Below are positions 1,793 to 17,844 of a DNA stretch of 20,856 nt, one piece after another. This stretch comes from a virus, in the IMG/VR virus record IMGVR_UViG_3300036832_001327, positions 1 to 20,856 of that record; one strand, written 5' to 3'. How positions within the stretch are numbered: the first letter of the stretch is position 1; every line of letters begins with the position of its first letter. The translations under genes and the position numbers were made by a program. The notes under the pieces are model-generated. The model saw nothing but the letters and a program-made list of their open reading frames with translations. It was not told where the DNA came from and made no database searches.

Positions 1793-2616
1793 CGCATCCT
1801 CCGCGCCATCATGAATGTGGCTGGCTGCACGGCGACCGTATCAGAATCAAATGTAGCTGAAGCCAAGAGATAAACCGACGTCGTCGCGCTCACCGAGACG
1901 CGCAATGCGGGAGCCGTCAATGTGCAGGCGCCAAGATTGGCCGCCGGCGTCGACATGGAGACGAATGTCGTTTGCGTCGGAGTGCTGCCGAACGACGTCA
2001 GCAGACTTACGCCGGCGAGTAAGACTTCGATGGCGCCCAAATCGGAATCAAAGGCAACCGAGCCCCAAACATCCCAATCCCCAGCCGTAAGATTGAGCAG
2101 AGCGGCGACCGTGATAACATCGGAAGTCAAGGTCATCGAAGCGGCATTGACCAACTGAATCTCACCCAGATGGCCCGCCGCAGCGTCTGAGCCATCCGTG
2201 ACGCCGATGGTGCTGCTGGGAGGGCCTGCGGGCCCAGTCGGGCCAGCGGGGCCGCTCGAGCCTGTCGCTCCAGTCGCTCCAGTCGGGCCAGCCGGACCGG
2301 TCGGGCCAGCAGGCCCAGCCGGACCGGTCGGGCCCGTCGCGCCGCCGCCGCCGAGTCCGAAGACCGCGCCGGGCTTGCCTGTGCCGAGTTGGATCTCGGT
2401 CAATTCAGCATTGGGCGTCCCAGATGTGACCGCCAGGCCGAATCGATAGACGCTCCGGCCGCCGTTTTGATCTTGCATCAGAAGCCCGGTGGTCGCCGAT
2501 GTGGCGTCGACCATCCGGTTCAATCCGTCCTGCATCCAAGCGCGCAGACGGCGCAAATAGTCAGCCACGATCGGCGGCAAGTTGGAGGGCAGATCTGGCG
2601 GCGGCGAGACGGTCAT
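1789..2616 (-). CDS. Collagen-like phage fibre protein
   Basis: The protein has 275 aa in three parts. An N-terminal helical head (about 1-50) probably attaches it to the tail. Residues 92-133 form 14 uninterrupted Gly-X-Y triplets (GPT, GPA, GAT types), expected to fold as a trimeric collagen-like rod. A beta-rich C-terminal domain (about 135-275), with repeated hydrophobic and Thr/Ser strands, would be the trimeric tip. Phage side fibres with GXY shafts are well known. The gene is translationally coupled at both ends (ATGA overlaps) to the nozzle-like gene upstream and the GNAT-like gene downstream. A receptor-binding or decoration role is inferred. Confidence 0.85.
   Translation of the reverse strand: MTVSPPPDLPSNLPPIVADYLRRLRAWMQDGLNRMVDATSATTGLLMQDQNGGRSVYRFGLAVTSGTPNAELTEIQLGTGKPGAVFGLGGGGATGPTGPAGPAGPTGPAGPTGATGATGSSGPAGPTGPAGPPSSTIGVTDGSDAAAGHLGEIQLVNAASMTLTSDVITVAALLNLTAGDWDVWGSVAFDSDLGAIEVLLAGVSLLTSFGSTPTQTTFVSMSTPAANLGACTLTAPALRVSVSATTSVYLLASATFDSDTVAVQPATFMMARRMR
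2218..2343 (-). repeat. Collagen-like GXY codon repeat
   Basis: Fourteen consecutive Gly-X-Y codon triplets within the collagen-like fibre gene. At DNA level they form imperfect 9- to 18-base tandem repeats (for example recurring GGGCCAGC and GGACCGGTC blocks on the plus strand). This is a likely site of length change by slippage or recombination. Confidence 0.9.
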
Positions 2617-4196
2617 CGATCGCCTCTGACGGCAAAGTCAAACAAGTGCTGGCCAACAGTGAAGGGCGTCACTGGCGGCGACGCCACGCTGATTTTCATG
2701 CGCAACGAGCGCCCGGTGATCCGTAGGTCGATATAGCCAGAGCCATCCGCCCTGAGCTGATAGGGTTGCGACCAATTGCCCATCCCGCCCGGCGATCGCG
2801 ACATTTTGCTGTAAAATTGGAATTGCAGATTCGGCAAGGTCTGCCCAGCCGGCATACGTAGGTCTGGCATGAGCTGTTTGAGCGTCACCAGTCTTGCGCC
2901 GGAAGTGAGATTCAGATCAAAGGTCTCGGCCCATGGCAATGGCGTGCCGGCGCTGTAATACTGATCGATCTCGTGCTCATAGACCAGCGTTCCATCCGCC
3001 ATAATGGTTTCTTCGATGTAGCTCGAATCAATGCCGGCTGACCGGCTCATCGTGCCCTGTGACCACCAGCCTTCTTTGTAATTGTAAATCACGCAGCGGG
3101 TGTTGTGCGGCTGGCCGTTTTGCGGAAAGAACCACCACCATTCATTGAAAGTCGAATTGTGCACCGCGCAAGCCTGCTCGCGCACATTGGCTGGGTCGTG
3201 ATCGTCGATAATCCATGGGCGCACCAGGCAAGCGATCGGATTGATCGATGCGCCGTCATAGGAATGCATGCCCTGATCGCTCATCCATAGGACCAGGCTT
3301 GAGGTCGAGACGATCGAATGCGGCGACCATGGCGTGCAGCCATCCGCCAGCTCCTTATAGCCGTAGACGTAGGGCAGGCCCTGATAAGCGCTCAAATAGG
3401 CGCGATGGGCGGTGAAAAACAATACGCCAAATTTGCCGGCGTGCGCGGCGATAATCGGGCTCGCTGGTTCGACGTCGAGAAAGCCAGATTGGGACACCAC
3501 CTCCGTATAGTTCCAAGTGTCAAAAAGCTCTTGGTCACACCAGGCGAAGCGGCGGGATGAACCACCGTCTGCGGTGCCGTCGTGATAGGTTCCGAACGCC
3601 ATCACGAACCGTTCTTGGGTGACAACGAAGCAGCGCGCATGCGGCACGACCGATCCCGCCGCGCCAGCAACCAAAGCCAGCGTTCCGCCGACCGTCGGAT
3701 CCCAGTACAGAAGCTCGCCAGTGATCGAGTTCATCACCAGAAGGATTGCGCCAAAATTATCGACCGACCAGACATTGGGGATGGTCTCGGTCGGCAGCAC
3801 TGTGCCGCTGGCGCGCGGCGTGCCATAGAGGTCGTCGCCATAGAGCAGATCGCCATAACCGCCTTCGCCCGGTCCAGGCGGGCCCGGCCATGGCGTCGCC
3901 GGCGCGACCGGAGAGACGTCGGTTAGCACGCCGCCGGTGTCGATATAGACATGCTGCTCGCAGACATAAGCGATGTGCTTGGTCCCGGTGAGATCGATCC
4001 AGGCATGGATCATCCGGCAGCGTGAGCCAAGCGGATAATGCGATGGATAAAGCAACTGCTTCTGGCCGCCGATCGGCTGCATTTCGCCTTCGATCCAGCG
4101 CACCAGATTGACTTCCGCCCAATTCGACGAGCGCATGTTCTTGGTGGCGTTGGTCACCACGCCGCCCGGAATCTGGATTGGGGTGAACTTGGTCAT
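2613..4196 (-). CDS. Tail nozzle / DNA-stabilisation-like structural protein
   Basis: The protein has 527 aa and begins MTKFTPIQIPGGVVTNAT. I chose the ATG at 4196 because it gives an ATGA overlap with the DUF3309 stop. The frame is open further upstream to 4292, but that extension would lie entirely inside the other gene and is Arg/Pro-rich shadow sequence. The N-terminus has the phage motif 'NLVRW-x-EG-x-MQPIGG' (about 29-44). It is followed by many short beta blades with W/Y-rich turns (LYWDP, WCDQELFDTWNY, WWWFFPQNGQ, YNYKEGWWSQG), suggesting a beta-propeller-like fold. This matches the tail nozzle or hub proteins of SU10-like phages, which correspond functionally to P22 gp10. The protein likely closes or extends the short tail after the adaptor. 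Function is inferred from motifs and context. Confidence 0.8.
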   Translation of the reverse strand: MTKFTPIQIPGGVVTNATKNMRSSNWAEVNLVRWIEGEMQPIGGQKQLLYPSHYPLGSRCRMIHAWIDLTGTKHIAYVCEQHVYIDTGGVLTDVSPVAPATPWPGPPGPGEGGYGDLLYGDDLYGTPRASGTVLPTETIPNVWSVDNFGAILLVMNSITGELLYWDPTVGGTLALVAGAAGSVVPHARCFVVTQERFVMAFGTYHDGTADGGSSRRFAWCDQELFDTWNYTEVVSQSGFLDVEPASPIIAAHAGKFGVLFFTAHRAYLSAYQGLPYVYGYKELADGCTPWSPHSIVSTSSLVLWMSDQGMHSYDGASINPIACLVRPWIIDDHDPANVREQACAVHNSTFNEWWWFFPQNGQPHNTRCVIYNYKEGWWSQGTMSRSAGIDSSYIEETIMADGTLVYEHEIDQYYSAGTPLPWAETFDLNLTSGARLVTLKQLMPDLRMPAGQTLPNLQFQFYSKMSRSPGGMGNWSQPYQLRADGSGYIDLRITGRSLRMKISVASPPVTPFTVGQHLFDFAVRGDR

Positions 4197-4381
4197 CGCG
4201 GCCCGCCGGCTAGGAGCCAGATGATCAGGATGATCAGAATCAGGCCGATCAGGCCGATTCCATAATGGCCGCCGCCATAACCATAGGCCCATGGCGCATA
4301 GCCGACCGGACCACCGACCCCGCCTATTCCGCCGATCAGGATGAGAACCAGGAGAACGACGAGTATTAGGCCGATGCTCAT
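4193..4381 (-). CDS. DUF3309-type two-segment membrane peptide
   Basis: The protein has 62 aa. A hydrophobic segment at about 3-18 (GLILVVLLVLILIGG) is followed by a Gly/Tyr/Trp-rich loop (APWAYGYGGGHYG) and a second hydrophobic segment at about 43-58 (LIGLILIILIIWLLAG). The size and layout match the DUF3309 family of small bacterial membrane proteins, whose function is unknown. It lies 11 bases after the collar gene and overlaps the nozzle-like gene by ATGA. Two membrane spans in a phage raise the possibility of a holin-like or envelope-interacting role. That is inference only, because holins normally sit beside an endolysin and this gene does not. The ATG has no clear Shine-Dalgarno. Confidence 0.75.
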   Translation of the reverse strand: MSIGLILVVLLVLILIGGIGGVGGPVGYAPWAYGYGGGHYGIGLIGLILIILIIWLLAGGPR

Positions 4382-4392
4382 GGGGGCTGACC

Positions 4393-5190
4393 CTATTGGT
4401 ATCGGATGATGAAGTTGATGACGAGAAATGGATGGTAAGTGTTGTGCGGCCCGCTACTGCCAGCTCCGTCGGTGTGATTAATGTTGGTCAAAGCTGGCTG
4501 GACAACGACGCCGGTATAGGCAAAGGCGATGTCGGCAAAAGCCGGGCCAACCGTGACGGTAGGTTGCTGAAAATCGGTAAATCCGCCCTGCGTGGTATAG
4601 GGGCCGACGCCAAGGGAAAAGTTTCCGCCTGGGATGATGACGCCGCCATGCCGGTGCGCGTCTTGCGACGCTGGATGGGTGTGCGGCGAGTTCTGGCTGT
4701 GGACGTGCTGCGGATCATTAATCGGATGCGCATGGCCTGGGTCTTCGATGACATGGGTATGGAGCGGTATTTCCGCTTCGACCAACGTGTGGGCGCTTTC
4801 GCCGCCAACAGCGCCGACAGCCACCGGTCCAAAACTCGCGGTTCCGACGCCAATCGGCGAGCGCGCGCCGAAATCCGGCAGATTGTAAGAACTCGAATCG
4901 ACGCTGCCAAAGCTTGTGCCGATCACGGCAAACAATTTGTCGTAAGGCGCAGTGCGCGGTATTGATGACCCATCACAGAGGAGCCAGTTGTCCGGCGCCG
5001 TCGTGCCGCCAAACATCTTGATTTCGCCGATAACCGTCGAACCGACTTGGATCGCGGTCTGATTGGCGAACACTTGGGCGTCGATCGCCTGCAAGTCGGA
5101 GTTCAGCTTGGCTCCCCAGGTGGCGAGCGAGCCATGGTCGGCGGGCATAACCCAGCCATAGTTGGTAGTTGCGCCATCGATATCGGCCAT
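4393..5190 (-). CDS. Phage tail-collar domain protein with HxH array
   Basis: The protein has 265 aa. The N-terminus has a short conserved segment (YGWVMPADHGSLATWGAKLN) and a helix that may trimerise or attach it. Residues about 53-115 form a Collar domain (PF07484): GEIKMFGGTTAPDNWLLCDGS, then YDKLFAVIGTSFG and YNLPDFGARSPIGVG. Residues 144-181 carry five HxH motifs (H144, H153, H162, H170, H179, each paired two residues later) at spacing of about 9. In T4 gp12 and gp37 such motifs bind metal in the fibre tip. The C-terminus is a beta-rich tip ending in the typical YHPFLVINFIIRYQ. The start codon directly abuts the stop of the 1363-aa gene (TAA then ATG on complementary reading). Probably a short tail fibre or receptor-binding protein. 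Confidence 0.92.
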   Translation of the reverse strand: MADIDGATTNYGWVMPADHGSLATWGAKLNSDLQAIDAQVFANQTAIQVGSTVIGEIKMFGGTTAPDNWLLCDGSSIPRTAPYDKLFAVIGTSFGSVDSSSYNLPDFGARSPIGVGTASFGPVAVGAVGGESAHTLVEAEIPLHTHVIEDPGHAHPINDPQHVHSQNSPHTHPASQDAHRHGGVIIPGGNFSLGVGPYTTQGGFTDFQQPTVTVGPAFADIAFAYTGVVVQPALTNINHTDGAGSSGPHNTYHPFLVINFIIRYQ

Positions 5191-8100
5191 TTACTTAGTA
5201 ACCTGAGTGAAATAGCGCGTTTCCATAAACGCCCCAGCGCCATCGCTTTGGCTTGGATCGGCGAGTCGAGTGACGACCGTGTCAGTCGTTGTCGAAATCA
5301 CCTCACCGGTCTCTACCACCAAATATTTGCCGTCATTGGTGATGTCCATCCAGCCCGGATTTTTGCCGTCGTAAATGTGCGTGTCGCTGCTGGTGGCGAT
5401 GAATTTCAGGTACGTCGGGGCCGAGCCGGTCCGCACCCCCGACACGTCCCAGACCTCCACGCCGTTGGCAGTGCTCGAACCGGCGCCCATGTTGGGGTCG
5501 GCGACATAGAGCTTATTGCCGTCCGGGGTAACCGCGAGCCCGTGTGAGTTCACCACATTGCTGGTGCCGGGTTCCGTGTAGCTCGGCGGTTTTTGCGAGT
5601 CGTACAGCACCGTTCCAGTAGAGGCGTTGCAGACCGCGAAGCCAACCCAATCCTCCAGGTTGACGTAAATTAGGTTATGGCCAAAATCGACGTCGAACGG
5701 CCGCACCCGGCCGTCGCCGGCAGTGAACGGCCCGCAAGTCGTCTGGGTGTGAGCTGAAGTGTCGTACATGGTCACGGAATGCTTGGCCGAGACGCCGCCG
5801 TGAAGGTCGATCGCCGCCATGTAGATCTTGCTCGCCGAGCATTCGGTGTTGTGTGGCCGCACCGCGCCGTTGGCCAAGGCAATGGTGTTGGGGGCGATCT
5901 GCGCCCCGGTAGCGGCGCTGAGCACATACCAGGACGATTGGTAGGTTCCGGTCTGCACGTTCTCGCCGGCCGGGGCATAGATGGTTGAATCGTCAGCCGA
6001 CAAGCAGGCGCGATCGATCGCCGCCAATGCGGTCCCTCCGGAATAGGCCACGTCATAGTCGGCTGAGTTCGAATTTAAATTCCAACTCATCAATCGCGCG
6101 CCAGTGGTGTTGCCCCCGACATTCGTCGTTCCGTAATTGGGGAAGTACAAATGCGTGCCGGTCGAGTCGGCGAACAGACCGCGCAGCCCCTTGACGCTCG
6201 TCGGGAGATTGAAGTCGAGACTGCTCACCCGAGCGAAGTTATTATCGATGTCATAAACCCGGACGTAGCCCTGCGTCGCCGGATAACCGGTGCAGTCAGA
6301 TCCGCCGGAGCTCGGACATTCTGGCGCAGTGGCGGCGTACCAATAATGATGCACCGGCGGCGGCCCTGCGGTAGCGTAGTTCTCATAAGCTCCGACTGAG
6401 GGCGGCGACTTCCAAGCTTTGCCGTCGTGATCGACGATCGGTTGCTGCGCCCCAAGATTGGTGCCGGCGCCGATGAGGCCGGGATTGAAGGTCCCGGTTG
6501 AATCGATCAAGTCCCAGCCAGGATACGGGTGGGTTCCATTGCCGGCCGTATAGCCAGCGCCGCCGTTATATTGCCAAAGACCGGCCGGAGGAAAGCAGTT
6601 CGACCCGCAGTTCGCTCCTGTAGCAGCGATCGCATAGGTGCCGACTGCTGGCGTGGCCGGCCAAAGTCCGGGCCTAGTGACTGAGTATGAAACAAAAAAT
6701 GTGGAGCCGGAGAATGCGGAATTAAGGTGATAGTCAAGGACACCGGAGCCACTGGTTGGGCACTGTGGGTCAGGTCCAATAGACCCGTGAAAGCAGGTGT
6801 TGAACTGCGAGAAGAATGCGGCAATGCCATAGCCGGGATTTGGGTAGGCGGGAGGAGACAGCGGGTTGTAGGAAAGGAACAATGACGACACGCCGGGTAT
6901 ACCGGTGCGGTAGTCGGTGGCCGACCAATTGCTTAATCCGATGAAATTGCCAACCGCGCTATCAGTCTTTATGCCGCCTGTCGATCCAAGCACGCAGTAC
7001 TGCTGTGAGACGGAGGCAGAAGCAACGTTGAACGGTATGGATACGTTGGTTTGTTGCGTCAAGTCGCCGTTTGCCGGATCGCATGAATTGGCGATTACCT
7101 TGTCATTCGAATGCCGATAAATTCCATTCGCTACGTTATTCGATAGAATTGTGGCGAGCGGGACAGCCGTCCCTTGTTGCTTGGACTGATTTCCCGCCTT
7201 TATTGGGTCCCCCATCAGGGTGTTGTGCGCCACAACATTATATGTCCCACCCATTCCTATGCCATTGGTGTTGGCGATGAGCGCGTTATTAGTGACGGTT
7301 GTGACGGAGTATATTTCATCTGTAAAACTAATTCCCTGCCATGTCCGCGGAAAAGGATTCGTCGGATCGGTCCATTCGATAATTTCGTTCTCCATCGCAG
7401 CGTTGTTATAGAATACGTCTGTCTGCTGAGTGCCATGCACCGCGAACTGCATGCCGTCCTGATGCGCCCATAATTCAGTTGGGTCGGTTACTAGGTTATG
7501 GATCAGCCAAATGGAATTATCTGAATAAAGGTCAAAAGCATCAGATGATGTCCATTTGACTTTGTTATTATAAAACATCGATTGGGATGTGAAAAAATAC
7601 TGGAAACCAATGAATGAATCTCTAGCGGTGCTGTCTTTAACCGATAGACAGTAAGAACCCTGGAGATTGTCAATGGGGGAGCCGGCGACTCCGCCCACTA
7701 TAAAGTCAGTTGCTATGTTGTTTAGGAAGTCTGCATGGTTCCAATATCCCGCTGGCTGAACGAGCATCTGATCAGTGAAGGTTATGGGCGCGCTGGACAG
7801 GGCCGCTGTGGTTCCGTTCCAAGGAACTGGACTGCAGGTATTAGGGAGAACATTTACAGGGTCGCAACCGACAACATTCGATGTGGAGCTGTGCGCGAGC
7901 CCTGGATAGTCTGTCGAAGGGCAGCCGGTTTGTTGGTCTGCGACAGGATCACAAGGACCAATGGTTATTGAAGTCGATGTGGCGGAGATGACCTTGGTCC
8001 CGTTGGGGATGCCGGTCGGGTTGAGGGTGAAAGTTCCCGGACCCGGCACATAGTATCCGGGCGACCAAACATATTTACCGACTTGCCCGGTTGCGCTTGA

Positions 8101-9282
8101 TGATGTGTTGATCGTAGTTGCGTGCAGCCCGGATGTGCCGTTGGTGGTTACCACGTTTTCGCCGTACTGATTACTCATTACCGGAGCGGCTGTTACGATT
8201 GTTCCATCTGAAGTTCCGCCAGTGGTTGGATAGTGTGAAGGATACCACGGATCGCTGGAATGCCCCAGCCAAGGTGATAGGTTAAGGCCTTCAAAGTAAA
8301 CATCGTGCAGGGGATTAGTATTGTTCCCGCCCATATTAATGAGGCTGCTTCCCCTAAATTGCTCAACATTAAAATTCTTGAAGACGAAGCCTCCCATACC
8401 ACTCCCTGAATTGATTTGGTGGAGAACCGGAGTCGAAGCAGCAGCAGGGTCTGCCATGATCCAAGTGAAGATCGGATTTCCTGTTGGTGAGCCGCCGACC
8501 GTGCTGTAGCGCCCGCTGCTGTTTATATCGCCAACAGGATTAGAACCGCCCCAACCCGGCTCAAGGTAAATCGTATCACCGGGTTGAATGAGCCTGCCGA
8601 AGATTGCGCCACTGTAGTTGGCAACGCTGTTAAACAGGGCTGTGATGTCTTTGAACGGGCTGCCGGCATGACCAGTAGCACCGCCGGTCTCCGAATGTCC
8701 GTTTACCGGATCGAAATACCAAACGTTAGCAGGGGTCGTGTTTTGGGAGACTGAAGGAATAGTGCATCCAGGAAAGACGGCATGCCCATTTTGAAGGAAG
8801 TGCGCCGGTGGCGCAGGAAGCGCCAGTGTCGGCGATGATCCCATGGTTTCATATGCGGGAGGCGCTGAAGGGGCTGACGCCTCAATCGGCCCAAACCAAT
8901 GACTCGTGCGGGTAGCGGAACCGGAAGAATTGGTCGCCGTGTCGTCAAGCTCGACGACGGTTCCGACCGCGCCCGGCGTCGTCAGAGTGATCGACGTGCC
9001 TGTGCCGAGCGATGTGCCATCCGGCTTGTGCCAAGCGTAGGCGTGGCTTGTCGGACTGTTCGTCCACTGACCCGGCGCCGCCGTCAGCGTCACCGTGCTG
9101 CCAGCTGCAGGGTAATCCAATCCAATGATCTGCGGCATCTCCAGGCTCACCGGCGCGCCGGCTGGCGGCGGACCGGTCCCGCCACCACCTGTCGAGCCGT
9201 TGCCGCGCAACAGCAACGCAAAGCTCGCGTCGCAACCCGCCGCGTAGGCGATCAGAGCCAGAATGACGGCGACAGCTCTCAT
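5191..9282 (-). CDS. Giant exported-type tailspike-like protein: Ig-like, beta-helix, beta-propeller
   Basis: The protein has 1363 aa. It opens with a signal-peptide-like segment (MRAVAVILALIAYAAGC). The AAGC could be a weak lipobox, although the usual Leu at -3 is missing. After a Gly/Pro linker, residues about 45-130 resemble a bacterial Ig-like domain (PAAGSTVTLTAAPGQW, YAWHKPDG, SGSATRTSHW). Residues about 187-780 look like a right-handed parallel beta-helix. They open with WYFDPVNG, run through Asn-rich turns (VFYNNAAMENE, VVAHNTLMGD), and reach a closing VGAYE at 963-967. Residues about 978-1363 look like a YVTN/NHL-type beta-propeller (GLAVTPDGNKLYVADP, DITNDGKYLVVETGE). Eighteen cysteines after the signal fall mostly in close pairs (444/454, 473/483, 892/896, 989/997). 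The likely role is polysaccharide binding or degradation at the host surface. Catalytic residues cannot be named by eye. The middle is markedly AT-rich. Confidence 0.85.
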   Translation of the reverse strand: MRAVAVILALIAYAAGCDASFALLLRGNGSTGGGGTGPPPAGAPVSLEMPQIIGLDYPAAGSTVTLTAAPGQWTNSPTSHAYAWHKPDGTSLGTGTSITLTTPGAVGTVVELDDTATNSSGSATRTSHWFGPIEASAPSAPPAYETMGSSPTLALPAPPAHFLQNGHAVFPGCTIPSVSQNTTPANVWYFDPVNGHSETGGATGHAGSPFKDITALFNSVANYSGAIFGRLIQPGDTIYLEPGWGGSNPVGDINSSGRYSTVGGSPTGNPIFTWIMADPAAASTPVLHQINSGSGMGGFVFKNFNVEQFRGSSLINMGGNNTNPLHDVYFEGLNLSPWLGHSSDPWYPSHYPTTGGTSDGTIVTAAPVMSNQYGENVVTTNGTSGLHATTINTSSSATGQVGKYVWSPGYYVPGPGTFTLNPTGIPNGTKVISATSTSITIGPCDPVADQQTGCPSTDYPGLAHSSTSNVVGCDPVNVLPNTCSPVPWNGTTAALSSAPITFTDQMLVQPAGYWNHADFLNNIATDFIVGGVAGSPIDNLQGSYCLSVKDSTARDSFIGFQYFFTSQSMFYNNKVKWTSSDAFDLYSDNSIWLIHNLVTDPTELWAHQDGMQFAVHGTQQTDVFYNNAAMENEIIEWTDPTNPFPRTWQGISFTDEIYSVTTVTNNALIANTNGIGMGGTYNVVAHNTLMGDPIKAGNQSKQQGTAVPLATILSNNVANGIYRHSNDKVIANSCDPANGDLTQQTNVSIPFNVASASVSQQYCVLGSTGGIKTDSAVGNFIGLSNWSATDYRTGIPGVSSLFLSYNPLSPPAYPNPGYGIAAFFSQFNTCFHGSIGPDPQCPTSGSGVLDYHLNSAFSGSTFFVSYSVTRPGLWPATPAVGTYAIAATGANCGSNCFPPAGLWQYNGGAGYTAGNGTHPYPGWDLIDSTGTFNPGLIGAGTNLGAQQPIVDHDGKAWKSPPSVGAYENYATAGPPPVHHYWYAATAPECPSSGGSDCTGYPATQGYVRVYDIDNNFARVSSLDFNLPTSVKGLRGLFADSTGTHLYFPNYGTTNVGGNTTGARLMSWNLNSNSADYDVAYSGGTALAAIDRACLSADDSTIYAPAGENVQTGTYQSSWYVLSAATGAQIAPNTIALANGAVRPHNTECSASKIYMAAIDLHGGVSAKHSVTMYDTSAHTQTTCGPFTAGDGRVRPFDVDFGHNLIYVNLEDWVGFAVCNASTGTVLYDSQKPPSYTEPGTSNVVNSHGLAVTPDGNKLYVADPNMGAGSSTANGVEVWDVSGVRTGSAPTYLKFIATSSDTHIYDGKNPGWMDITNDGKYLVVETGEVISTTTDTVVTRLADPSQSDGAGAFMETRYFTQVTK

Positions 9283-12200
9283 GGTATCGTCACCACCGAT
9301 CCGAATTTGTAGTATGTCGCATTGGTTGGCGATCCCGTGTGCGTCTCATTATAATCAACCGTGTAGCCGGGGCTGAGCGCGATTGAATGCGTCGTGTCCT
9401 GCGCGCCGCCAAGCATCACTCCGCTATTCGCGCCCGGGCACGCATTGCCTGTGCCGAACGTGACCGTCACTGGACTATTGGTCGTCGGCGCAGCCAGCGT
9501 CGTTCCATACCGCAACGTCCCGGTGCGGGTGGGCGTCGTGCCCGTCGCGCCGTTCGTGCAATACATCATCTTTTTCACGGTCATCGTGCTGGCGACTTGG
9601 GGAACCAATTGCCAATTGGTTTCCACGGTAAACGCCACATTATCAGACAGACCAATGATGTACGGATTAGACGTATTTAGATTGTTGTTGCTCGAAGAGG
9701 CGACAACAGCCTCACCCGGTATCGTCGGATTCCATTGAACCGACACTCCCGGATTAACACCATTGCAAGCCGCGGACGGACAACCGATATCGAGCGAGAT
9801 GGTATCGCCGGCGACAACAGAAAAGGCGGTCGCGCTCGTGCACGCCGCTGCGGTCACCCCACCGATATTGCCGACCGCGCCCACATTGGTGCAGCAACCA
9901 GCGGATACCGTCGTCGTATTTGCCGTGCAGGCGATCCCCGTCGCAGTCCCGTTCTTCATCACTGTATAAGTATGTGGATTAGTGGCGCTCTCATTGGCGT
10001 TGGGAACGACGTACAATCCGGATATCGTTCCGGCGGTCGGCATCAAAGTCGACGCCATCGCCTCATTGGAAATTGAACTATTCCATATCGCATAACCAAA
10101 ACCCTGATAGACATGCGTACTGGCCCCATTTGTGCTGCTGCTATTACCTCCCGAAAGCATAAAGCCAGTCGACGATCCGCTATCGGCTTGAAACTGCGCA
10201 CTGATCTGAAACGGCAGACCCGATGTCTGCGCCCACGTTCCGCCCGGTATCCACTGCCATGTGAGCAGATCACCCTGATTCCAATGCTCAGTAGCAGAAC
10301 CTGAATTGCAAAATTGAGACGCAGAAAAATTGCACGTTAACGTGCCCTGCGTGGTGTTTTTGTAAGAGAAAATGGCTGCGGTCGTAAAGGGCGCGTTCAA
10401 TCCCGCGGCCAGTCCACTCATCGTTCCCGCAATCGGGATCGGGACCTTTCTGGTGGAATTGATAGACGTTACCTGGGCAAACAGCCCGGTTTGCCCAGGT
10501 GTCCATTCATTCGACGTGCCAGATGTGATCGCCTGACTTGAGACAAGAATGGGCGTGATCATATTCGCCACAGACACCGGGGTAGATTGATCAGCGCCGA
10601 TGCTGTTCGAACCAGGCAACGAGTTGTTGAAGAAATCCTGCGAACCAGGCGAAGCGATCGTCTGTCCGGCGCCGAGCATCGGCGAACCGGCGAGCAGCTT
10701 GTAAGCCACAGCCTGAGGCGAAGGATCTCCAGGCGTCGTGTTGGTCGTCAGGCCGCCGCCCGGCGTGGTGAGCGATGGGTTAGCTGTCGTCCCGACCGGC
10801 GTGCTGCCGACCTTCTCGAAGCCGGCTGCTTGGAATGACGCGAGACTGGTATAGGTCGTCGCACCATTGGTTAGAGAAAACGCTCCAGTTGTGTTGAAAT
10901 AATCATTGCCAACCCAGGTCAGCGGCGTCGCCGCGCCGCCGCCATAATTGATGGCGAACGGGATCGTCCCGGTCGTATAGTAAATGTTGTTCGACAGCGT
11001 GCCCGTGACATCCACCGGCCTGCCGCCGCCTGTCGCGATGGCCGCTGCGCCGGCGCGCGATTGATAAATCGTATTGTTGTAGACACTAAGATTGGTGATG
11101 CCGCCATCACCCGCAACGCCATCATTGCCGACGAATAGGCTCGCCGCCTCAGCGGTCGAGACTACGTCGTCATTCTGACTAACATTGAAACGAATAATAT
11201 TGCTGTCGCTCGCGACTATCGGCGGCGAGACGTTTGAGTAGGCGTAAAGCATAAATCCAGGTCCGCCATTGTCGTGGCTGTAATTATATTGCATGATTGA
11301 ATTAGTGGTGCCCGCATCAAAGCCAAACCCGGCGCCGTCATGAGAGCTAGTCGTTCTCTGTCCATACGCCTCATTGTCTTGGACGGTGATGCTGTCTGCG
11401 TCGCCGACCCATATAGCGGTTGTTCCCGGTCCGCTGGTTCCATTGTTATAAGCTAAGCTATTGCTAATCGTTCCGGTTCTGGTCTCACCAATAAAAATAC
11501 CAGCGCCAGCCCAAGCAGACGATGTGGAAATCCCGCTGTTGCCATATGCGGTGCAGTGATCGACGGTGACATTGGTATGCGATGGATTTGTTGTGCCAAA
11601 CGGATAACCAACGCTGCTCGTAACCATAATTCCAGCCGAGCCAGCGCCGCCTGCATACCAAAACGTATTGCCATGCGAGACGACATAGGAAATGGTTACA
11701 TTGTTGAAGCCTGATGATCCTGCGCTTCCTTTCACCAACACCCCACTCGAACCATAGCCGCTCACGTCAAGCCGCTGCAGAGTAATGCCGTTCAGTTTTG
11801 TGTTTCCTGACTGGGTGTTGTTTATGAAAATCCCGTCAATGTGACTGGTCGCTCCTGCGCCGACGAAAATAAGATCCTGAGCGACAAAACCGGCGTTATT
11901 CGTAACGGTAAGGCCGGACGCAGTGCCAGACGAGATCGTCGCGTTGCCCGTGCCATAGCTGCCGATGGTGATCGGCGTCGCTAAGGTTGCGCCGCTCCAC
12001 GAGCTTGCGGTGAAATTGATGCCGCCGGAGAAGGTCTGGCCGCCATTGAACAAGATATTCGTCCCCGGAGCGTAAGTCCGGCCATTAATCTTGCCGATCG
12101 TTTGCCACGGGGTCGATGTCGATAGGCCGTCATTGGTGTCGCTCCCGCTTGTCGAGACGTAATAGGTCGTCGCGGTCGGCGGCGGCCCGACGACCTTCGA

Positions 12201-12305
12201 AGGAGCCAAACCAGGACGGCCAATGGATCCCAGCCCAGGCGCGCCAGCCTGAGCAAAAGCCTGAGTGCAGAACAGCAGACCAACGAGAAAAACTAAAGCC
12301 CGCAT
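9279..12305 (-). CDS. Exported-type parallel beta-helix protein with triplicated C-terminal domains
   Basis: The protein has 1008 aa, from an ATG at 12305 whose last base pairs with the preceding stop (TGATG). An ATG at 12311 or TTG at 12320 would add 2 or 5 residues. The N-terminus MRALVFLVGLLFCTQAFAQA is a textbook Sec signal peptide with an AFA-Q cleavage site. Residues about 47-572 are a right-handed beta-helix: it opens with YYVSTSGSDTNDGLSTSTPW, continues with Asn-ladder turns (VYNNTIYQS, SNNIYYTTG), and ends at SIGADQ. The rest holds three related beta-sandwich-like units (about 600-710, 755-865, 900-1008), each with MxGLxVxx...G...V-type strands and cysteine pairs. Signal peptide plus this beta-helix opening is typical of secreted bacterial proteins. 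In a tail operon it suggests a tailspike or surface depolymerase. The enzyme activity is unproven. Confidence 0.87.
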   Translation of the reverse strand: MRALVFLVGLLFCTQAFAQAGAPGLGSIGRPGLAPSKVVGPPPTATTYYVSTSGSDTNDGLSTSTPWQTIGKINGRTYAPGTNILFNGGQTFSGGINFTASSWSGATLATPITIGSYGTGNATISSGTASGLTVTNNAGFVAQDLIFVGAGATSHIDGIFINNTQSGNTKLNGITLQRLDVSGYGSSGVLVKGSAGSSGFNNVTISYVVSHGNTFWYAGGAGSAGIMVTSSVGYPFGTTNPSHTNVTVDHCTAYGNSGISTSSAWAGAGIFIGETRTGTISNSLAYNNGTSGPGTTAIWVGDADSITVQDNEAYGQRTTSSHDGAGFGFDAGTTNSIMQYNYSHDNGGPGFMLYAYSNVSPPIVASDSNIIRFNVSQNDDVVSTAEAASLFVGNDGVAGDGGITNLSVYNNTIYQSRAGAAAIATGGGRPVDVTGTLSNNIYYTTGTIPFAINYGGGAATPLTWVGNDYFNTTGAFSLTNGATTYTSLASFQAAGFEKVGSTPVGTTANPSLTTPGGGLTTNTTPGDPSPQAVAYKLLAGSPMLGAGQTIASPGSQDFFNNSLPGSNSIGADQSTPVSVANMITPILVSSQAITSGTSNEWTPGQTGLFAQVTSINSTRKVPIPIAGTMSGLAAGLNAPFTTAAIFSYKNTTQGTLTCNFSASQFCNSGSATEHWNQGDLLTWQWIPGGTWAQTSGLPFQISAQFQADSGSSTGFMLSGGNSSSTNGASTHVYQGFGYAIWNSSISNEAMASTLMPTAGTISGLYVVPNANESATNPHTYTVMKNGTATGIACTANTTTVSAGCCTNVGAVGNIGGVTAAACTSATAFSVVAGDTISLDIGCPSAACNGVNPGVSVQWNPTIPGEAVVASSSNNNLNTSNPYIIGLSDNVAFTVETNWQLVPQVASTMTVKKMMYCTNGATGTTPTRTGTLRYGTTLAAPTTNSPVTVTFGTGNACPGANSGVMLGGAQDTTHSIALSPGYTVDYNETHTGSPTNATYYKFGSVVTIP

Positions 12306-14812
12306 CACCATGCCCAGCAAGCTACGCTCGTCGTCGCCGAAGCGATGATGCTTAATGCGGTGTTGGCGCCGAAACCATTCGGCGTCGTATAAGACGGCGT
12401 CGCTGCGTTGAGGGTGATCGTCGGCGCCGTGCCAATCACCGCCGCGCCGAACAAATTGATGCCGACATTGTTAGTGGTGTTGAGATTGGTCACGGTAAAA
12501 CCGTGAATATTGGCGGTCCCAAGACCGGGCGCATTGGCTGCGGTCGTCGTTGCGCTGACCGAGCAATTGATCGGGGTGACGTTGGTCGCGCTCACCACCT
12601 TGGCGTTGTTGTTGCTGTCCATGCTGCTCGACATCTGCTGGGTAATTGTTCCAAGATAGCCCAGCATGCTCGAGCCGCCGGATCCCAGGACCGTCGTCGT
12701 TGGGGCAGCTCCGAACGCTGTGCCTGGCGTGTTGGGCGACAGCGCGACCACCTGAGCCGGATCGGCGGCGACCGGCGACGTCGAAGCCGCCTTGACCGAA
12801 GACACATTGGTCCCGTCAGTGAGCTTGGTGAACCAGGCATTGGCCGCCGTGCCCGGAGGACCTTGAGTCACAGTGCTTGAGCTGCCTGTCGTATTCGTCG
12901 CGATCTTTTTGAGGATGGCGACTTGCGTGCCGCTGCCCGAGCCAGACCAGGCCGCGTCAGCCTGGGTCCCCATAGTGACGATCGATCCATCTGCCAGAGA
13001 GCCAACCGCATAAGCGCCGGAGGCGACCGATCCAGAAGCCTGCGTGACGGCCTGAGTAGCGGGGAAATTCTGTACATGGACCTGAGAACCATTGTCGGCG
13101 TTCAGCGGCGCCTGAAGAGCCTGCGTCGCCGCACCGGTCGGCAGCGGCTGAGAGGCAAGACTGACCGGCTGCGTCGCCGGGAAATTCATCACATGGACTT
13201 GGCTGCCATTATCAGCGTTGATCGGAGCCTGTAGTGAAGCTTGCGCCGCGCCATTCGGCAGGGGGAGCGCCGCCGCGCTGATCGCCACCGTATTGGTGAC
13301 GAATGCATTCGTTCCGGGGAAGAGACCGGTTGGAGCTGTGCCATAGGTCGACGGATTGCCGACCGTCTGAGTCGCCCATTGGGTGATGTTGACATTGCCG
13401 CCGCCGCCGCCGCCGGTCGAGCCGAAACAGGTCGCCGTGCCATCGGGACAAGCGACCAACAAAGGATGGCCAGTCACGCCGATGACATTCGTCCCATCGA
13501 ACAATTTGGTTTGCTGGGTGCCGTTGGTCTGATTAGCGGAGGTCGCCGCGCCGGCCGGCAGCGGCAACGCGGCCGCGCTGATCGGCTGGGTGGCCGGGAA
13601 ATTCATGATGTGAGCGTTGGCGCCGCCGTCGGCGTTGATCGTCGGTTGACCGGACGCGGTCGCCGCATTGGGCGGCAGCACGGAAGACAGCACATTAGCG
13701 TTGACGCCAAACACGCTGAGCGTTGTCGGGGCGGTTCCCCAGACCGAGCCGGATGCGCCGACCATGTTGCCGCCTGAGACCAGCATGCCGTTGAAGGTGG
13801 CTGACGTCGGCGCCGGGGCGGGCGGCGAAACCACGCCAACAGACGCATTCGAGCCTCCACTGCCGCCCGAGCAGCCGGCGATGCAATTGACATTAAAGCC
13901 GCCGCTGGTCGAACCGATCACCGTGCCGCCGCCATCGACAATCTGGGTCTTCTGGCTGCCGCTGGTTTGATTGGTCGCGGTCGATGCATTGGGCGGCAGC
14001 GCCGCAACCGAGCCGGCGATCGTCTTTAAGATCGCGATTTCCGAACCAGATCCGGTCGCCCAGGCCGCGTCGGCTTTGGTCCCCATGGTGATCAGCGCGC
14101 CATCGGCATAGGCGTTGCTCGCCGCAGTCACTGGACCGCCGCCGCTGGTGCAGCCGGAAGCGCAATTGAACGACGGCGTCGATGCGAACCCGGGCAGCGC
14201 CCCCAAGATCTGGGCGTTGACACCCAAGACATTGAGCCCAGTCGGCGCGGTGCCCCAAGGCGAACCGCTGACCCCGACCATGCCGCCGCCGGTGGTCAGC
14301 ATGCCCACATAGGTCGCGGAGGTCGGCGCCGTGCCGGGGACCGGGCTGACCGAAGCGTTCGAGCCCGAGCCGCCCGTGCCGCCGCTACAGCCGGAATCGC
14401 AAATGATATGCGGGACATTAAGCACATTGGCGTTGACATCGAGCACCGTGCCGCCGTTTGGCGGGGTGCCCCAGATCGAGCCTTTCGGACCGATCATATT
14501 GCCCGACGGGTCAGCCAGAATGCCGATGTAGGTTGCATAACCAGGCGGCGGCGAGCCCCATGGCCCTTCCGACAATCCGCCGCCTCCGCCACCGCCGCCT
14601 GACGCGCCGCCGACCGGGGTGAAGGCGTGGGTCGTCTTGTTGACCGACCCCATCTGCGCCCAGATCTTGGAAGCGTCCTGCACGAACACCGGCTCCGGAT
14701 CACTGGTGTGATCGATGCCCATTTTCGCCGTCGAAGGATTGTTCGACGCGGTCTGCGCCTGAGCCCCGTAGGTGACGAAGGCGAACAGTACGGGAACGAA
14801 CAGCCATTTCAT
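12305..14812 (-). CDS. Exported-type modular repeat tail-fibre-like protein
   Basis: The protein has 835 aa and opens with a signal-peptide-like segment (MKWLFVPVLFAFVTYGAQAQ). The body is assembled from repeated modules. Module A is '(Y/F)xGML...GxMxGxxGSxWGTAPT...VNAxxL' at about 95-131, 168-203 and 340-375. Module B is 'ADG-x-I/V-TMGT-x-ADAAW...AILK-x-IA' at 236-266 and 607-638. Module C is 'LP-x-x-A-x-TAxNQTxGxQxT...DG...VIG' at 271-300 and 416-445. Module D is 'xNADNGSQVHVxNFPATQ' in three copies. Three CxxxC-[ST]-G-G motifs (138/142, 217/221, 310/314) recur before Gly-rich linkers. The C-terminal ~95 residues (IHGFTVTNLNTT...) resemble a beta-sandwich end domain found in phage structural proteins. 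Repeats of this kind are typical of phage fibre shafts; the signal peptide is not. ATGA overlap upstream, TGATG downstream. Confidence 0.83.
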   Translation of the reverse strand: MKWLFVPVLFAFVTYGAQAQTASNNPSTAKMGIDHTSDPEPVFVQDASKIWAQMGSVNKTTHAFTPVGGASGGGGGGGGLSEGPWGSPPPGYATYIGILADPSGNMIGPKGSIWGTPPNGGTVLDVNANVLNVPHIICDSGCSGGTGGSGSNASVSPVPGTAPTSATYVGMLTTGGGMVGVSGSPWGTAPTGLNVLGVNAQILGALPGFASTPSFNCASGCTSGGGPVTAASNAYADGALITMGTKADAAWATGSGSEIAILKTIAGSVAALPPNASTATNQTSGSQKTQIVDGGGTVIGSTSGGFNVNCIAGCSGGSGGSNASVGVVSPPAPAPTSATFNGMLVSGGNMVGASGSVWGTAPTTLSVFGVNANVLSSVLPPNAATASGQPTINADGGANAHIMNFPATQPISAAALPLPAGAATSANQTNGTQQTKLFDGTNVIGVTGHPLLVACPDGTATCFGSTGGGGGGNVNITQWATQTVGNPSTYGTAPTGLFPGTNAFVTNTVAISAAALPLPNGAAQASLQAPINADNGSQVHVMNFPATQPVSLASQPLPTGAATQALQAPLNADNGSQVHVQNFPATQAVTQASGSVASGAYAVGSLADGSIVTMGTQADAAWSGSGSGTQVAILKKIATNTTGSSSTVTQGPPGTAANAWFTKLTDGTNVSSVKAASTSPVAADPAQVVALSPNTPGTAFGAAPTTTVLGSGGSSMLGYLGTITQQMSSSMDSNNNAKVVSATNVTPINCSVSATTTAANAPGLGTANIHGFTVTNLNTTNNVGINLFGAAVIGTAPTITLNAATPSYTTPNGFGANTALSIIASATTSVACWAW
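13031..13642 (-). repeat. Three copies of an in-frame fibre repeat (module D)
   Basis: Approximate units at 13559-13642, 13139-13222 and 13031-13105, all read on the minus strand. They encode INADGGANAHIMNFPATQP and two closer copies with NADNGSQVHV and NFPATQ. Plus-strand signatures include GGGAAATTC followed by ACATGGAC. The two leftmost copies are near-adjacent and most alike, which suggests a recent duplication. Confidence 0.85.
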
Positions 14813-15105
14813 GACGGCGACCCCATATAGCTGTAGACCGCGATGACCATGTCGGACGGCACGACTGCAATTTCAGTCGATGTCCAGTAGACGTTGCGAT
14901 TGGTGTCGATGTGGAAAGAGCCGTCGACGGTGGTGAAGGTGACGCCGTTGATGATCAGCTCGCACAGGCCGCCATAGGGCGTATGGCTGACCCGGGGCAG
15001 CGTATTGATCGCCGTCGGGATCAGCCGCTCCATACTGTCAAGCAAGACCAGAGACATGGCTCCGCATCCGTCAGTTTCGACCCAAGAATTGAACACCAGG
15101 CTCAT
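14809..15105 (-). CDS. Small beta-rich tail-associated phage protein
   Basis: The protein has 98 aa, with a TGATG junction to the adaptor gene and an ATGA overlap into the 835-aa gene. The centre (CELIINGVTFTTVDGSFHID...NVYWTSTEIAVVPSDMVIAVYSY) has the 'ELxxNGV ... F ... WxS ... L-xxxD-x-V-x-A-x-Y' pattern. That pattern occurs in small beta-sandwich proteins or domains encoded next to phage fibre genes. There are two cysteines and no membrane segment or signal peptide. It may link the fibres to the adaptor or nozzle. I cannot name it more precisely. Confidence 0.7.
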   Translation of the reverse strand: MSLVFNSWVETDGCGAMSLVLLDSMERLIPTAINTLPRVSHTPYGGLCELIINGVTFTTVDGSFHIDTNRNVYWTSTEIAVVPSDMVIAVYSYMGSPS

Positions 15106-15749
15106 CAGCCAAAGCTCCGGCGCGTACGGGTGAGACGGGAGCCGGACGCTTTCGAGCGCTGATGCTCTTGGTTGAGCTTCTGGATGGCGTCTTCGGCCAG
15201 CGCCTTCATATTGGCGGCGCTCTGTTCTTCGCCGATCGCATGCAATTCGGCATGCATCAGCGCAGCATACAAATACAGACTGGGATATTTGCTATAGACC
15301 CAGGACGGCGTGGCGTCGGCAAAGACCGGGACTTCGGCATAATAGGCGATCTTGTAAGGCGTGCCGTTGACTTCATCCGGTTGGCCGCCGAAGTAGATCG
15401 TCCGGCCAATCAGCGTATAGAAGCGCCAAGTCTGTTGGATGGCGCTGGTGTCCCTAACCGCCTCAGTGCGGAAGAATTCTTCGCGCGTCTTGTAATGAAT
15501 CGGACAAAAACCAGTCGACGCCCAGCCGGCGGCGATCTGCACCAAATCCATCTCCAACCAATCGTCGGGCAATGGGCCGCAGGCGTCGGTGACGGTGTTG
15601 GAGGCGTATTTGATCATGCGAGCGATGCGCAGTTCAGAATTGAGCTTCTGCTCGGCGGCCCGCACATAGGACATGACCAGGGCGTCCGACCAATCCTGCC
15701 GGTTGGCCCAGTCCTTCAGCGTGGCGACGAAGTCGCTGTAATCGCTCAT
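15105..15749 (-). CDS. Head-to-tail adaptor protein (SU10-like)
   Basis: The protein has 214 aa. The N-terminus 'DFVATLKDWANRQDWSDALV' followed by 'YVRAAEQKLNSELRI' is characteristic of the SU10-type phage adaptor family. It is followed by LPDDWLEMDLV and a strand-rich middle (TLIGRTIYFGG, YKIAYYAEVP), then a long C-terminal helix (YLYAALMHAELHAIGEEQSAANM...) and a basic tail (KASGSRLTRTRRS). In known relatives, twelve copies bind under the portal ring and connect it to the nozzle. The length is normal for the family. The ATGA overlap with the lysozyme gene and TGATG with the next gene place it firmly in the operon. Confidence 0.88.
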   Translation of the reverse strand: MSDYSDFVATLKDWANRQDWSDALVMSYVRAAEQKLNSELRIARMIKYASNTVTDACGPLPDDWLEMDLVQIAAGWASTGFCPIHYKTREEFFRTEAVRDTSAIQQTWRFYTLIGRTIYFGGQPDEVNGTPYKIAYYAEVPVFADATPSWVYSKYPSLYLYAALMHAELHAIGEEQSAANMKALAEDAIQKLNQEHQRSKASGSRLTRTRRSFG

Positions 15750-16842: not shown

Positions 16843-17844
16843 TTACGGCTTGATCGAGTTGAACAGGATATGCGCCAGTGGATTGCGCATTTCGATGCCC
16901 CATTCGACCACGATCATGCGCGTCTCCGCATCGCCGACCCGAGCCATCAGGAACTGGCGGAAATTGCGGAAAAAGGCGAAGGCAAGATAGTCTTGATCGA
17001 GCAAGAGCCCGACATCGGTCGGAATCCAGCGCGACGGGGCGACTTTGATCCGGCCGAAATCGGTGGCGATCACGTCGACCGTCGACACCACTTCCGTCTT
17101 GCCGACCAGGACTTGGGTGGTCGACCGGCCGGTGAAGGTCGACACCGTCCGCTTCACGCCGGGCGGCACGATCAAGAGGGTCGGGCTCGCGCCATTGACA
17201 TAGGCCTGCTGCATCGCCGCGCCGAGCATCGCTTCGGTGATCTGCACCGCGGCGCCGGGCGTCGGGAACACCGCCGTGGCTGTATAAGCGCCGGGCAGCG
17301 AAGTGCCTGGCGCGACAGCGCCATTGACCGCGCCGGTGCGGTCGGTGGCGCGCCCCAGCCAGTGGCAGATGGCTTCGGTCGTTCGGGGCGTCGGGGTCGA
17401 ATCGTTGCCGGCGTTGAGCGCCTGACGCGAGCAGGCGATCGTCTCCAGGTCGCTTTTCAACACTTTGGCGGTCATCGCCATCTGATGCGCCATTTCCGAC
17501 GACTTGCCGGCCGCATCCACTTCTTCTTGCGAACCCGAGACCGTAGCGTCCCGTTTACTGATTTGCGTAGCGTTGCTCTGTCTCAAGGTCGGCTGAGCCG
17601 GCGAATTGAGCAACAGAAAACCTTCCGGCTGCGCATTGTTCGGATCGACGGTCGGCAGAAATTCCGTCTGCCAGTCGAAGGTTCTGTTTTTGGTGTTCCG
17701 GCGCTTGGAGCCGGACATCACCGGCGTATCAAACGGATCTATATTGTAGATTGCGTTTGACAAGTCTTCGCGGTTACCAGTCGCGGAATAGGTAGTAAAG
17801 GCAGAGGTTACCTTACCTGTGCTTTCGACATTGTTAACGGCCAT
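16843..17844 (-). CDS. Major capsid protein (DUF5309 / SU10 type)
   Basis: The protein has 333 aa. The N-terminus 'ATGNREDLSNAIYNIDPFDTPVMS' followed by 'RNTKNRTFDWQTEFL' is diagnostic of the DUF5309 (SU10-like) HK97-fold capsid family. The later parts also fit: LLIVPPGVKRTVSTFTGR, VVSTVDVIATDFGRIKVAPSRW, and LDQDYLAFAFFRNFRQFLMARVGDAETRMIVVEWGIEMRN near the C-terminus. About 415 copies would build a T=7 shell in this family. It follows the scaffold gene by 10 bases, with a good Shine-Dalgarno (GATGAGG) 8 bases upstream that overlaps the scaffold stop. A separate strong ribosome site is expected for the most abundant virion protein. Confidence 0.95.
   Translation of the reverse strand: MAVNNVESTGKVTSAFTTYSATGNREDLSNAIYNIDPFDTPVMSGSKRRNTKNRTFDWQTEFLPTVDPNNAQPEGFLLLNSPAQPTLRQSNATQISKRDATVSGSQEEVDAAGKSSEMAHQMAMTAKVLKSDLETIACSRQALNAGNDSTPTPRTTEAICHWLGRATDRTGAVNGAVAPGTSLPGAYTATAVFPTPGAAVQITEAMLGAAMQQAYVNGASPTLLIVPPGVKRTVSTFTGRSTTQVLVGKTEVVSTVDVIATDFGRIKVAPSRWIPTDVGLLLDQDYLAFAFFRNFRQFLMARVGDAETRMIVVEWGIEMRNPLAHILFNSIKP

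Follow-up and report, generated by a model that had tools for sequence, protein, structure and literature searches.

Predicted Sec signal peptides on three giant proteins encoded where an SU10-like podovirus would have its long-tail-fibre genes

Known systems and the position of the locus

Virions of the Caudoviricetes are held to assemble wholly in the cytoplasm, and their tail proteins are not thought to be exported. In the Kuravirus SU10, the long tail fibres are gp12 and gp13, whose genes lie between that of the adaptor gp11 and those of the short fibre gp16 and the nozzle gp17, and the available part of the SU10 description presents both as fibres on the assembled virion, with no mention there of an export signal (PMC9509320). 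Phage proteins that use a host Sec signal are exemplified by Lys44 of fOg44 and the SAR endolysins (reviewed in PMC6116005); these are lysis enzymes, however, whereas the proteins considered here are products of a tail-fibre locus. A limited search of the open literature returned neither a report of signal-bearing tail-locus proteins nor a precedent for tail fibres attached from the periplasm.

The window, that is, the whole stretch of DNA analysed here, is a viral fragment of 20,856 bases from a soil phage (IMGVR_UViG_3300036832_001327), and the genes named below lie on its minus strand. The order is portal, scaffold, the SU10-type major capsid protein (16843..17844; PF17236, SU10_MCP, E 5e-74), small genes, a lysozyme-like gene and the SU10-type adaptor (15105..15749; PF24175, E 3e-23). 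These are followed by a 98-aa protein at the junction of adaptor and cassette (14809..15105), which is kept in the related contigs L004, L129, L132 and L051, and then by three giant proteins, a collar-domain tail fibre without signal peptide (4393..5190; PF07484, E 1e-16), a small hydrophobic protein, a nozzle-type virion structural protein (2613..4196; phrog_3287, E 3e-57), a collagen-like protein and an S74/ejection-type protein. Capsid, adaptor and nozzle proteins of SU10 type, in that sequence, place the window in an SU10-like podovirus, and these three proteins are homologous to their counterparts in SU10 itself.

The three giant genes occupy the same adaptor-to-short-fibre/nozzle position as the genes of gp12 and gp13 (PMC9509320), and the likeness is one of position; in Pfam and PHROG, the cassette matched no known fibre family. 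The closest isolate by capsid, Ochrobactrum phage vB_OspP_OH (MT028492; 67% identity), has capsid, adaptor, collar fibre, nozzle and S74 protein in the same order as the window; unlike the window, it has just two small genes between adaptor and collar, neither with a signal peptide. Among the structural genes tested in the closest isolates (OH, phiM5 and ppBeUSDA76-2), no signal peptide was found.

Signal peptides and cysteines of the giant proteins

The first-pass annotation of this DNA had claimed that the proteins of 835, 1008 and 1363 aa each begin with a Sec-type signal peptide, and had proposed signal-peptide prediction as a check. This was run with a rule-based scorer written for this analysis (cut-off 4.0), which turns down any sequence that has a further hydrophobic helix close to its start and which was calibrated on 161 E. 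coli K-12 proteins from six annotated genome stretches, where it called 34 of 39 known exported proteins and 2 of 122 from the cytosol. All three giant proteins are positive and none is low (4.77, 5.25 and 6.08, respectively), which bears the claim out. Chance hydrophobic starts are ruled out by these scores together with the pass rates of random 80-mers of each protein's own composition (0.55%, 0.24% and 0.18%); nor does any internal segment of the three proteins reach the cut-off. Because the starts of the three ORFs overlap upstream stops (ATGA at 14812/14809, TGATG at 12305 and ATGA at 9282/9279), the hydrophobic segments are truly N-terminal, and mis-called starts are likewise ruled out.

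Each of the three segments combines a basic n-region, an uncharged hydrophobic core and an AXA-like cleavage site at a true N-terminus, as expected for Sec/SPI substrates. Protein 1 (835 aa, 12305..14812, minus) begins at a coupled ATGA with the predicted signal peptide MKWLFVPVLFAFVTYGAQA (14756..14812, minus), followed by Q at the predicted site AQA/Q, and its mature part is rich in C-x3-C and 'NFPATQ' repeats. Protein 2 (1008 aa, 9279..12305, minus) begins at a TGATG-coupled start with MRALVFLVGLLFCTQAFA (12252..12305, minus), followed by Q at AFA/Q, and continues into a GH136-like beta-helix and a C-terminal all-beta module. In protein 3 (1363 aa, 5191..9282, minus), the predicted signal peptide (9217..9282, minus; ATGA-coupled start) is either MRAVAVILALIAYAAG, followed by C at a lipobox-like AAG/C site, or a longer one ending in DASFA before L at an SPI site (SFA/L); a Gly-rich linker and an Ig-like/beta-helix body follow, with a possible beta-propeller, judged by eye, at the C-terminus.

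It had also been stated that nothing else in the operon carries such a segment. This holds for signal peptides, as 16 other window ORFs all score below the cut-off; two of these, nozzle and scaffold, were read from wrong starts, but members of their families score 0 of 34 and 0 of 62, respectively. It does not hold for hydrophobic segments at large, as a 62-aa ORF (4193-4381, minus) that overlaps the nozzle start has two hydrophobic helices. This ORF is not a signal peptide, is weakly DUF3309-like (19.4 bits against a cut-off of 22.3) and is possibly a holin-type or other small membrane protein.

Cysteines were counted in the mature part only. Their number is even in 25 of 28 signal-bearing proteins from the window and its relatives (binomial P 1.4e-5); among signal-less cassette proteins, the figure is 27 of 60 (Fisher P 6e-5). 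These P values are approximate, given that the set includes related proteins and that a few of the 60 ORFs are incomplete or doubtful. Such even counts, as a sequence pattern, point to disulfides and hence to an oxidising compartment. The 1008-aa protein, with 11 mature cysteines, is one of the three exceptions.

Recut cassettes and domains among relatives

Relatives were retrieved by adaptor and capsid protein, and genes were called by codon usage on about 115 related contigs; the evidence is computational, comes from uncultivated viruses and uses a scorer and a gene caller of our own. Across these contigs, a signal peptide is absent from all 447 core genes scored (capsid, portal, scaffold, adaptor, collar, nozzle, S74 and small genes), and the large signal-bearing proteins are concentrated in the stretch from adaptor to collar fibre, an exchangeable cassette. 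This stretch measures 12.5-13.2 kb in the window's clade, where adaptors are 96-97% identical, as against 3.0-6.1 kb in signal-less relatives. Signal-bearing proteins occur in 4 of 29 distinct contigs with a fully covered adaptor-collar interval, and on the adaptor tree the trait requires at least three changes across well-supported branches. As most relatives' cassettes are signal-less, the signals are not a general property of the phage group; host DNA at a contig edge is also ruled out, as the cassette sits between adaptor and collar and recurs in three sister contigs. In L047, L084 and L026, signal-bearing proteins lie next to signal-less fibre-like genes, so that the former need not be fibres. 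A few small signal-bearing proteins adjoin the cassette stretch, for example 121 aa in L092 (11072-11437) and 128 aa in L007 (2431-2817), both in the interval between capsid and adaptor; the latter is similar (33%) to the C-terminal end of the 835-aa protein's homologue in L129.

The cassette is recut among the sister phages. L132 and L005 have homologues of all three proteins, each with a signal, and the protein 1 homologue in L129 and L132 is about 90% identical, with a signal peptide that has diverged but looks functional. In L004 and L133, protein 1 is shared in its first half, and the second and third proteins are different ones, each signal-bearing: in the second, the C-terminal module of the 1008-aa protein stands by itself (32% identity), and the third joins a beta-helix of the 1008-aa type to a body of the 1363-aa type behind a single signal, the 1363-aa body corresponding to the interior (residues 595-1996) of the 2583-aa L133 protein. 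The C-terminal module also stands alone, with its own signal, in L130 (32%, as in L004) and in L118, L126 and L047 (29%). A signal on stand-alone modules and a single one on fusions mean that the signal tracks polypeptide N-termini and not particular domains. Furthermore, dN/dS for the signal-peptide codons between window and L132 is 0.11-0.31 (few codons, with dS near saturation for two genes). Both features argue against leftover signals, and comparison across relatives indicates that the signals are selected and kept by purifying selection.

Searches with Pfam, PHROG and NCBIfam returned nothing on the three giant proteins as a whole, and Pfam and NCBIfam found neither an anchor nor a second export signal on them. 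For the 835- and 1363-aa proteins, tblastn against isolate phages gave nothing useful and a PDB sequence search gave no match; with the 1363-aa protein, a scan of viral contigs gave nothing useful and alphaproteobacterial genomes gave weak partial matches only, and the same genomes gave no match to the stand-alone module of L118.

The beta-helix domain of the 1008-aa protein (residues 43-577; 10575..12179, minus) matches the GH136 lacto-N-biosidases 7v6m (E 4.8e-31) and 6kqs (E 5.8e-15) in hmmsearch, and a fold search matched GH136 and AlgE4 (alginate epimerase) structures; judged by these matches, the domain is a homologue of the GH136 lacto-N-biosidases. In ErLnb136, D568 and D575 serve as acid/base and nucleophile (PMC7335108), and Asp323 and Asp330 of the window protein have the same spacing of 7 in an equivalent context. 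However, the window protein is phage-encoded, is fused to another module and is a predicted enzyme, and in the same hmmsearch no region of it matched the additional GH136-I domain reported for the lacto-N-biosidases. In the L132 homologue (L132:8001-11036 against window 9279-12305), both catalytic Asp residues are lost from a protein about 77% identical, so that catalysis is not needed everywhere. A homologous beta-helix without signal occurs in L151, a Hyphomicrobiales prophage, beside prophage lysis genes. In the AlphaFold model of the 1008-aa protein, only residues 42-499 are informative. The C-terminal module (residues 581-1008; 9282..10565, minus) is all-beta, and a model of moderate quality tentatively suggests that a single chain may hold three tandem C1q/TNF-like jelly rolls.

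Probable export, possible virion attachment and alternative readings

It is quite likely that the three giant proteins are exported across the host inner membrane via Sec, a reading supported by the even cysteine counts and by exosortase-type proteins in the same clade. The latter are small proteins with a Sec signal and a PEP-CTERM-type C-terminus, found in the early region of a near-complete 39-kb sister contig (L159:11552-12211, minus) and, near the portal gene, in eight other relatives (L067:2968-3537, L077:681-1328, L085:5038-5751, L089:3391-3951, L091:1198-1875, L096:4360-5082, L099:3052-3654 and L116:4300-5019); the sister's protein and six of the eight others pass the Pfam cut-off for PEP-CTERM. 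These are apparent phage-encoded exosortase substrates, whose hosts presumably possess an exosortase, and with them the phages of this clade appear to make envelope-directed proteins routinely. Since such a signal persists in relatives through gene exchange and recutting, some host-recognition proteins of these phages probably leave by way of host secretion.

What the exported proteins do may be pictured as follows. The three genes make up a swappable cassette at the site of the long-tail-fibre genes, and their products, carrying Sec signals, would cross the inner membrane during infection. In the periplasm, the signal would be cleaved and disulfides would form, and the mature proteins would fold into glycan-directed modules, which from their sequences may be a GH136-like beta-helix, an all-beta head and a third, beta-rich protein. 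Once the envelope is broken at lysis, the virions, themselves put together in the cytoplasm, would meet this periplasmic pool and acquire their spikes, some of which might also be released free and clear glycans of neighbouring cells. The complete chain up to attachment at lysis is a possibility that we hold tentatively. Against it count the odd cysteine number of the 1008-aa protein and the signal-less structural genes of the closest isolates; in addition, the mature N-termini of the three proteins show, by eye, no obvious common virion-docking motif.

The main competitor to this chain is that the proteins are exported via Sec and never join the virion, acting instead on glycans as secreted or surface-held products of the structural operon, whether to clear matrix, to release progeny from debris or to prevent superinfection. 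This is a tenable account, although short of likely. It is in keeping with a beta-helix whose nearest relatives are extracellular GH136 and alginate-epimerase enzymes, complete with the spaced Asp pair, with the PEP-CTERM envelope proteins of phage origin in related phages and the window's sister, and with the three contigs that pair signal-bearing proteins with signal-less fibre-like genes. However, the genes are start-stop coupled within a structural operon, in the fibre position, where they replace the signal-less fibre-like genes in the window's clade; neither an anchor nor a second export signal was found on the products; and the L132 homologue has lost both Asp residues. Moreover, no further long-fibre gene is evident in the near-complete sister contig, and this, with the coupled position in the structural operon, favours a role in the virion. 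Of the two readings, both of them among the options of the first-pass annotation, periplasmic maturation followed by virion attachment is slightly favoured over a purely secreted role.

That the hydrophobic segments instead are uncleaved anchors or, for protein 3, a lipoprotein signal, holding the proteins on the inner membrane and facing the periplasm, seems improbable. In its favour, the lipobox-like AAGC of protein 3 is followed by Asp and kept in L132, but the cysteine is absent from the recut third proteins of L004 and L133, which have an SPI-like site there; proteins 1 and 2 have canonical AXA sites, and a further hydrophobic helix close to the start is a ground for rejection by the scorer. 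The least probable reading, that the signals are relics of captured secreted bacterial genes and no longer export most of the product, had been raised in the first-pass annotation as leftovers of capture and would suit both the kinship of the beta-helix with secreted bacterial enzymes and the signal-less homologues in prophage L151 and phage contig L134, but it is largely excluded by signals that survive cassette exchange, fusion and fission, even on modules that are interior elsewhere, by purifying selection on their codons, by at least three origins and by the even cysteine counts.

A swappable cassette at the fibre locus with Sec signals and even cysteine counts would imply either extracytoplasmic maturation of spikes or a set of glycan enzymes that the phage secretes and encodes in its structural operon. 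Returning to virion attachment, we tentatively propose that spikes are built in two compartments, with capsid and tail made in the cytoplasm and the spikes exported via Sec, folded with disulfides and attached at lysis, and that this arrangement has several origins. If so, disulfide-rich domains of the secreted-enzyme type could serve as spikes. Either reading would alter the prediction of receptor-binding proteins in environmental phages, because annotation would label proteins of this kind as secreted by the host.

Finally, four other phage contigs (L131, L134, L135 and L136) resemble the window in having consecutive large tail-region proteins with Sec signals and mostly even cysteine counts, and L135 and L136 also have a related beta-helix. 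These contigs are metagenomic too, and as far as we found have not been described. They differ from the window in the tail genes of L134 (phrog_394/376) and in the head gene of L136. In the latter contig, five consecutive large signal-peptide proteins with even mature cysteine counts (L136:4262-11470) accompany a capsid protein of phrog_371 and yet a related nozzle protein.
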